Positions 17,557-51,832 of a stretch of 64,000 nucleotides of DNA are shown piece after piece. Made by a program: the position numbers and the translations under genes. A model generated the notes under the pieces. The model was not told the DNA's origin, made no database searches, and saw only the letters and a program-made list of their open reading frames with translations. Source of the stretch: Desulfuromonas sp. (GTDB lineage: Bacteria; Desulfobacterota; Desulfuromonadia; Desulfuromonadales; UBA2294); the NCBI GenBank assembly GCA_002869615.1, contig PKUH01000099.1, positions 1-64,000 on the forward strand, written 5' to 3'. Position 1 is the stretch's first letter, and every line of letters starts with the position of its first letter.

Positions 17557-17584
17557 TAGACTGCTCAAGCTGATGAGAAGCAAA

Positions 17585-17614
17585 AGGCTCCCCCGTCTGG
17601 GGGAGCCTTTTTTG
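17585..17614 (+). terminator. Rho-independent terminator after desulfoferrodoxin
   Basis: GGCTCCCCC pairs with GGGGGAGCC around TCTG, followed by TTTTTT. Confidence 0.9.
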
Positions 17615-17691
17615 TGGTTCATCGCATTTTACCGGGAATCAGGTGGTGCGTACTTAAACTCCTCCACACGTTTTTAACTGCACCCTGAAAA

Positions 17692-18205
17692 CAAAAAACC
17701 AGTTCGCCGGTATCTCCCGGCCTGCTCATTACTTTTCTTGCCTATCCTGAGCCAGCCGAAGGGCTTGTCCAGGAAAAGTAAGCAAAAGAAAGACACTCCA
17801 GCGAGTCCGCCTGATGATCAGGTTCCCTCACTGCGCCGATTTCAATCCGTCAGTCACTGTCGTTCCCGACTCCGATAGGAAATCAAATTATGATTTTGAA
17901 TCACCACCGGAGCTCTTGAGCTCGCCCCTTTTTCCCGCACCAATGATCCGTAGCCCGACCGCAACCGCCACGGAGGCATGCCGCGTTTGCCTCAAGGCAA
18001 ACTCTCGAATTGCACTGTTGAACAGAAGCAATTCAGACCGAGTACAAAAGCCCCCTGCAAGGGAGCCGTTTTCTGCATACTCTTTTATGGCTTAATAAAA
18101 GAGTATGGCGGAGTGCGCGGCCGCGACCGCGCGGTTCTCCTGTATTCTGAACTCAGGTCAGTGTCCCTATCCAGCCAATCAAGACCGCAAGTTGCCCGGT
18201 TCAAA
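17692..18205. repeat. Composite dispersed repeat, copy A (modules X and Y)
   Basis: Module X (about 17692-17866) is matched, inverted, at about 51540-51720. Module Y (about 17910-18176) is matched, inverted, at 50711-51003 and 51090-51409. Within Y I see a short hairpin GTTTGCC...GGCAAAC, a terminator-like GC hairpin (AGCCCCCTGCAAGGGAGC), a 12-bp perfect stem (18076-18087 with 18096-18107), a GC-rich palindrome (18117-18134) and half of the GGGACAC palindrome. Reading frames inside it are low-complexity and I do not call them genes. It ends about 30 bases from the methyltransferase stop. Confidence 0.8.
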
Positions 18206-18234
18206 TCAAACTCAAATCCGGGCTATATCTTTAA

Positions 18235-50613: not shown

Positions 50614-50710
50614 GGGAGGGTTGGCTCCGTGTTGATTAGGTCCTCCACGTGCCTAAAGGTACTAAGTTGCGCGGGCGTGCCCTCTGTCGTCCAAGGGGAC
50701 ATTGTTGGAT

Positions 50711-51003
50711 AGGGACACTCCCCGCAGTTCAGGGGAGTGTCCATAGATACTGAAGACAGGAAGAACCGCGCGGTCGCGGCCGCGCACTCCGCCATACTCT
50801 TTTATTGAGTTATAGAAGAGTATGCAGAAAACGGCTCCCTTGCAGGGGCTTTTTTATTTTTTTCTGATTTCTTCTGTTCAACTGTGTTACTGGAGAGTTT
50901 GCCTTGAAGCAAACACGGCATGTCTTCGTGGCGGTTGCGGTCGGGCTTCGGTTCAGTGAACGCGGTGCCAAGGGGCGACCTCAAGAGCTCCATGGGTGAG
51001 TCA
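50711..51003. repeat. Composite repeat module Y, copy B
   Basis: From left to right: GGGACACTCCCC palindrome (50712-50723 with 50732-50742), GC hairpin (50768-50773 with 50780-50785), 9-12-bp hairpin (50793-50801 with 50816-50824), terminator-like hairpin GGCTCCC-TTGCA-GGGGC followed by a T-rich run (50832-50860), then the GTTTGC...GCAAAC hairpin. It is the inverse of the matching part of copy A and a direct relative of copy C. Confidence 0.8.
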
Positions 51004-51089
51004 AAATCATCTATGGATTCCCCCTTCGTCTACTTCGGCGAGCTCAGTACAAGATAGCTCAGGACAGGTGATCGGAGTCGAAAAGCTGA

Positions 51090-51409
51090 CGGGGACACTA
51101 CCCGAATTACAGGGAAGTGGCCCCTGACCTGAAGACAGTAGCCAGGACATAGAACACTGAATACAGAAGAACCGCCGGGTCCCGGCCCGGCAGCCGGGTT
51201 CATTTCTTTATTGAGCGATAAAGAAACGAACCAAAGAAACCGCTCCCTTGCAGGGGGCTTTTTTTGATCTGAATTGCTTCTGTTCAACTTTGCTGCCAGG
51301 GAGTTTGCCTTGAGGCAAACGCAGTTCGTCGCTGTGGCGGTTGCGGTCGGGCTGAGGTTCAATGATCGCGCTACCGGAGGCGACCTCAAGAGCTCCACGG
51401 GTGAGTCAA
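51090..51409. repeat. Composite repeat module Y, copy C
   Basis: Same order of elements as copy B: GGGGACACTACCC palindrome (51091-51103 with 51112-51124), GC hairpin (51174-51179 with 51186-51191), 14-bp hairpin (51198-51211 with 51218-51231), GCTCCC-TTGCA-GGGGGC plus seven T (51242-51265), then GTTTGCC...GGCAAAC. Stem sequences differ from copy B but remain paired. Confidence 0.8.
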
Positions 51410-51479
51410 AGGCTTTGCTTTTAAGGTTTTGAGACTTTTCCTGGTTTTTTCTGACAGCTGACAGCTTAAAACTTACAGC

Positions 51480-51770
51480 TTTCTTATATGTAAGACCGCC
51501 GAGCGAGCAGATTTCAATCCGGCGTTCAGGTAACGCCAGTGACTGACGGATTGAAATCTGCGCAGTGAGGGAACCTGATCATCAGGCGGGTGAGCTGGGG
51601 TGTCATTCTTTTGCTTTCTTTTCTTGGACAAGCCCTTCGACTGGCTCAGGACAGGTAAGAAAAGAAAGGAGCAAGCCGGGCGATACCGGCGACCTTGATT
51701 GGTTTTTTTGTGGCGTCCCCAGGTTAGATGGGACACTACCAGAAGTTCAGGGAAGTGTCCTCTGGCCTGA
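51480..51770. repeat. Composite repeat module X, copy D
   Basis: Contains a 14-bp perfect inverted repeat (51508-51521 with 51547-51560) around a second hairpin (GGCGTT...AACGCC), a long imperfect stem TTGCTTTCTTTTCTT/AAGAAAAGAAAGGAGCAA (about 51608-51677) and a final GGGACACTACC palindrome (51730-51761). About 51540-51720 matches, inverted, 17692-17866 of copy A. Confidence 0.75.
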
Positions 51771-51774
51771 AGAA

Positions 51775-51805
51775 AAAAGGCGAGCTTTTCAGCTCGCCTT
51801 TTAAA
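51775..51805 (-). terminator. Bidirectional terminator of the nitronate monooxygenase gene
   Basis: GGCGAGCT (51779-51786) pairs with AGCTCGCC (51791-51798), flanked by AAAAAA and TTTT so it can work in both directions. Confidence 0.85.
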
Positions 51806-51832
51806 TAATTGAACAACTATGGTTGCTATCAC

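Follow-up and report, generated by a model that had tools for sequence, protein, structure and literature searches.

The composite repeat modules described here probably represent the hairpin-triplex structured ends of a non-coding and presumably mobile DNA unit, usually of 0.4-0.6 kb. They were found in a 64,000-nt stretch of a Desulfuromonas sp. contig (PKUH01000099.1), hereafter called the window. The observations behind this reading are the covariation of two hairpins, the covariation of three strands, a polarity between these strands, the pairing of modules and the presence or absence of whole units at matching genomic sites. Should the units prove mobile, this would be a widespread and largely unannotated kind of mobile DNA whose ends consist of a structural signal.

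Composite modules and covariation of their hairpins

An earlier note on this DNA had described two modules, B and C, with different stem sequences that stay paired, and had taken these compensatory changes as a sign of selection on structure. Both GC-rich stems were confirmed by direct reading with the sequences given there, and the AT-rich stems correspond to inverted repeats I12 (B) and I5 (C) (Table 1). The terminator-like hairpin reported for both copies, with a T-run after it, is also present in both, but only copy C reads as described, GCTCCC-TTGCA-GGGGGC (read directly), whereas copy B carries GCTCCC-TTGCA-GGGGC, with four G instead of five. Folding of the region beats dinucleotide shuffles both as RNA (z -5.0) and as DNA (z -3.0 and -3.8).

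Table 1. Modules and associated features of the window
Positions	Strand	Feature	Details
17702-17791	+	Partner module, second pair unit	R1 match 33.4 bits
18067-18136	-	Type B module, second pair unit, facing inward	R1 match 85.4 bits; unit of 435 bp
50712-50743		REP-like hairpin GGGACACT...AGTGTCCC adjoining module B	Repeat family D2, inverted repeat I8
50764-50833	+	Type B module: GC hairpin, linker, AT hairpin, mirror tail	R1 match 79.6 bits; ~33 type-B copies
50768-50785	+	GC-rich hairpin, module B, GCGCGG-TCGCGG-CCGCGC	Read directly; covarying helix 1
50793-50824	+	AT-rich hairpin, module B	Inverted repeat I12; 5 basal pairs freely variable, upper arm pyrimidine/purine
50826-50831	+	Putative third-strand tail AGAAAA, module B	Mirrors consensus purine arm AAAAGA; one mismatch in the module B copy
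50834-50855	+	Terminator-like hairpin and T-run, module B	Lineage-specific addition; T-run missing in other lineages
51170-51239	+	Type C module, left end of pair unit 51170-51694	R1 match 73.5 bits; ~13 type-C copies
51174-51191	+	GC-rich hairpin, module C, GCCGGG-TCCCGG-CCCGGC	Read directly; covariation
51197-51232	+	AT-rich hairpin, module C	Inverted repeat I5
51232-51239	+	Putative third-strand tail CAAAGAAA, module C	Mirrors AAAGAAAC at 51220-51227 exactly; family-wide test
51605-51694	-	Opposite-strand partner of the type C module, with REP-like insert in the AT-hairpin loop	R1 match 41.6 bits; arms 51614-51625 and 51657-51668

A profile search of the source genome revealed 46 copies of a ~300-nt repeat with two discrete core types, B and C (33 and 13 copies, two variants included), whose cores are near-invariant and whose flanks drift; type C resembles the main module type of a congeneric genome. 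Since both types are near-invariant sub-families, the comparison of B with C amounts to a single contrast, and related genomes were therefore needed to assess covariation. Homologous modules with other stem sequences were collected from genomes of the order by BLAST and a descriptor search. An alignment of 28 sequences (A1) contained 100 double-change cells against a shuffled mean of 32 (0 of 500 shuffles; slid controls 9-25), with double changes at 17 of the 20 pairs, and an alignment of 80 distinct sequences (A4) contained 323 against a shuffled mean of 88 (0 of 500; slid controls 23-64). A covariance model (R1) gave 101 matches in the source genome. Such covariation, which greatly exceeds both shuffles and slid controls and is strong over the 80 distinct modules, bears out the proposed compensatory changes: the structure of the module is maintained by selection. 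In one type B copy (locus L036, 797-1027) precisely the AT hairpin is missing, and this natural deletion offers a useful control.

A putative third strand

The AT motif of the module begins with a pyrimidine arm, which is followed by a purine arm and then by a purine tail. At stem pairs 6-10, 361 of 366 Watson-Crick cells have their pyrimidine on the 5′ arm; the basal pairs 1-5, in contrast, flip freely. The tail, which lies 3′ of the AT hairpin, is conserved (e.g. GCAGAAAA or GCAAAAGAA) and mirrors the upper purine arm across a constant gap of 6 nt. Among 81 unique modules, the mirror match between tail and purine arm reaches 0.85 versus 0.71 for permuted tails (0 of 300; kinship ignored), and the alternative of a direct repeat gives no comparable excess in the same set. 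With 75 modules, G was found opposite G between tail and arm in 54 cells, versus 22.6 expected (odds ratio 54, 0 of 2000 permutations ignoring kinship). The second position of the third strand shows agreement in 69 of its 71 purine-purine cells (35 GG, 34 AA). Matched arm/tail pairs include AAAAGA/AGAAAA, AAGAAAA/AAAAGAA, AAAGAAA/AAAGAAA, AAAGAGA/AGAGAAA and AAGAAGA/AGAAGAA. The mirror match was replicated in loci from a second bacterial class, that of Cupriavidus, which had entered none of the models (0.878 versus 0.705, 0 of 1000; kinship ignored), with arm/tail pairs that include AAGGAAA/AAAGGAAA and GAGAAAA/AAAAGAG.

At the level of sequence, this co-change of tail and arm is the signature expected when purine-motif (Y-R-R) DNA triplexes form, and three strands that change in step suggest that the triple helix itself is kept by selection. 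The AT motif could adopt either a 12-bp hairpin or, within the one strand, a purine-motif DNA triplex of ~7 nt in each of its strands; we infer that this triplex may also form in the cell. The triplex state would require the opening of the five basal pairs. Because a linker of 1 nt follows these pairs, hairpin and triplex cannot coexist, and the triplex is therefore proposed as an alternative state. The strand order (5′ pyrimidine, purine, and then a purine third strand as mirror repeat) is that of a class II intrastrand triplex, and both the ~7 nt per strand and the 6-nt second loop fit the ITxF definition (stem of 6-15 nt, loops of 1-6 nt); the first loop, with 6 nt in B and C, reaches at least 8 nt in some copies, beyond the 1-6 nt limit. 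The formation and relevance of DNA triplexes in living bacteria have so far been argued mostly from sequence abundance and in vitro work. The co-change of tail and arm in many lineages and in a second class provides comparative evidence for selection on the triplex itself. For a direct test, the modules are a well-defined substrate that is present in many copies and comes with natural variants and deletions.

The small RNA also proposed in the earlier note did not find similar support. According to this alternative, the module would be transcribed inward, either as a small regulatory RNA or as a structured untranslated region, and the transcript would stop at the terminator-like hairpin, in line with the stable RNA fold, the hairpin with T-run that follows both modules and the strong covariation of the helices. 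However, mismatches in unique helices are not skewed to wobble (G-T 11, A-C 19, both about equally rare), so the stems lack the wobble tolerance of a structured small RNA, and the pyrimidine/purine polarity together with the co-varying mirror tail would be left unexplained. Purine-motif triplexes are reported to form in DNA but not in RNA (PMC4666352). Moreover, the T-run after the modules is not kept in the genomes of other lineages, the modules are arranged as inverted pairs, and Rfam gave no meaningful match at either gathering or permissive thresholds. A small RNA is therefore regarded as very unlikely.

Paired units and their genomic setting

The hairpin-triplex modules stand one at either end of a non-coding unit, on opposite strands and both facing inward, usually 400-600 bp apart. 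Four complete genomes yielded 38 cases of module neighbours no more than 700 bp apart, of which 37 have the two modules on opposite strands (p ~3e-10): 24 are convergent, 320-598 bp apart, 13 are divergent, 106-160 bp apart, and correspond to junctions of adjacent units, and one case is on the same strand. Most units with inward-facing modules measure 366-541 bp. The earlier note was too narrow in this respect, as copy C has an opposite-strand partner and a second complete pair lies at 17702-18136; the pairs of the window are thus 51170+/51605- and 17702+/18067-, with module B as an extra.

Both unit regions of the window (50614-51832 and 17557-18234) are tail-to-tail intergenic spaces between convergent genes. 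One of the gene pairs consists of a rubredoxin/DUF2231 gene and a nitronate monooxygenase gene, and the other of a short ORF and an ORF that presumably encodes a methyltransferase. Unit interiors are variable and recombine as mosaics, with no conserved gene seen within them, and the two ends of a unit do not form inverted repeats of identical sequence. Units extend a few bases past the GC hairpin to their outer boundary, often with TCAA preceding RACCG, and GGTTTTGA often follows the GC hairpin on its outward side. Autocorrelation at 7 nt is 0.313 near unit ends versus 0.25-0.29 further out, and degenerate tandem repeats of 6-7 nt, such as (CAGCACT)n, abut units in their outward flanks (L162 4155-4244, L174). 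Tandem arrays of units occur in three genomes (G006, G029 and G052). In a locus of G005 (L163 1199-2193), four modules in direct orientation follow each other with a spacing of 308 bp, in contrast to the usual inverted pairs.

The location of both window units between convergent genes, as well as the frequent GGTTTTGA outward of the GC hairpin, could be understood if the units were bidirectional terminators or insulators, kept for their effect on neighbouring transcripts. However, termination needs neither the purine polarity nor the mirror tail, several units stand in arrays, and the PIT triplex repeats of E. coli show no promoter or terminator activity (PMC4666352), all of which makes this role most unlikely.

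Probable mobility and distribution

Units were found at three intergenic places of genome G052 whose matching sites are empty in the congener G005, and one unit of G044 lacks a counterpart at the matching place in both G052 and G005. These comparisons were made at 75-80% identity, at which insertion and deletion are not separable in every case, and a divergence of 20-25% between the congeners blurs the exact unit ends. Because whole units are present or absent at matching congeneric sites, they are probably mobile, and the earlier suggestion of a structured end of a mobile element holds in the form of an end of a dispersed, apparently mobile unit. No transposase or other unit-borne gene was found. 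A target-site duplication was not definable from G052, G005 and G044, where flanking repeats blur the boundary, or from the Cupriavidus copies, where the outer GC repeats are themselves tandem.

Several candidates for an autonomous element or a known carrier were set aside. Two 1.7-kb units of G025 hold an IS481-type insertion sequence instead, and since its copies are 99.9% identical and the units ~88%, the insertion sequence arrived later; its location at the same position in both units (L206 and L207) suggests a preferred target. Further wide spacings, seen in G041, contain host genes or reflect partners that escaped detection. As for a link to RAYTs, neither of the two Y1_Tnp genes of the genome is flanked by a module or a GGGACACT hairpin. 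An integron cassette array was set aside for the copies of G029 spaced by 640 bp, as they are tandem copies of one and the same unit. At the sensitivity used, there was no blastn match to the module in a plasmid collection and no pattern match in viral contigs.

Short non-coding units with inverted ends, variation in copy number and empty sites would also be expected of an ordinary MITE, whose ends would be recognised as hairpins by a transposase acting in trans, the triplex symmetry being incidental. Nevertheless, the covariation of the mirror tail and the polarity, which recur in a second class, would still need a reason, the ends lack sequence-identical inverted repeats, and neither a partner transposase nor a target duplication was found; an ordinary MITE thus seems unlikely. 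With the hairpin-triplex end as the preferred reading, we infer that the structure would act in single-stranded DNA, during replication or repair, where it would stall or mark the unit ends, and that some enzyme or the replication machinery would then place a further copy of the unit at another intergenic site. It is conceivable, though rather doubtful, that the units form an unnamed class of mobile DNA present in several phyla, whose ends would be recognised or replicated via a hairpin-triplex switch, with a triplex that is needed for spread because it halts the fork or marks it.

Model R1 detected the module in 52 of 58 genomes sampled from the order, with 0 to ~100 copies per genome, and gave sparse and weaker matches in the phylum outside the order. 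A pattern for one AT-stem type found at least 120 stretches in Desulfuromonadales and several Cupriavidus species, together with one locus each in Massiliimalia and a Clostridiales MAG; the occurrence in these two Firmicutes is weak. Cupriavidus numazuensis has at least 144 model matches, many of them paired ~600 bp apart, and the Cupriavidus class shows matches at E up to 1e-5 in 38 of 229 genomes. The architecture common to the order, the Cupriavidus class and the two Firmicutes may result from either common descent or convergence.

Comparison with known repeats

Among known repeats, the PIT/BoxC/TM-ECO intrastrand triplex elements described in E. coli and its relatives (PMC4666352, citing Hoyne and Maher) come closest, and the module is an A/T-rich, hairpin-capped variant of them. 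By its strand order, the putative triplex of the module belongs to the same class II of intrastrand motifs (pyrimidine-loop-purine-loop-purine, with a mirror-symmetric third strand), and both are found in many intergenic copies, several in inverted pairs, and linked to variable sites (PMC4666352). TM-ECO, rich in G/C, has strands of 9 nt and a second loop of 3 nt, whereas the arms of the module are A/T-rich and depart from the TM-ECO/PIT consensus CCCTCNCCC...GGGNGAGGG...GGGNGAGGG; unlike TM-ECO, the module also has five extra covarying basal pairs and an adjoining GC hairpin, and its pairs are usually spaced 400-600 bp apart instead of ~15-30 (PMC4666352).

By analogy, the unit would work like a bacterial MITE (PMC10969869), with which it shares its short, non-coding and intergenic nature, inverted ends, many copies and empty sites in relatives; unlike in MITEs, its ends are alike in architecture and not in sequence, with neither target duplication nor autonomous partner found. 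Paired multicopy sites of Geobacter metallireducens also form opposite-strand pairs, there with insertion sequences at fixed distances, and are set apart by their description, which speaks of putative IHF/HU sites and of octa- or heptanucleotide repeats in tandem (PMC2700814) rather than of hairpin-triplex modules. A sequence-string search of the open-access literature gave no match, and an earlier description of the exact family may exist.

Finally, REPs and REPINs are likewise dispersed palindromic repeats, but REPs are single hairpins of 20-40 bp with a GTAG or CGTC tag (PMC3733652), whereas the module combines two hairpins with a mirror tail and lacks the link of a tagged hairpin to a Y1 transposase. 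REP-like hairpins do adjoin the units. The GGGACACT...AGTGTCCC hairpin, a separate repeat family, occurs again in the window at 51092-51123 and 51730-51760, and also soon downstream of many copies. REP-like hairpins also occupy the AT-hairpin loop, where they look like insertions, at 51614-51668 of the window and in two further loci (L084 999-1116 and L089 846-963).
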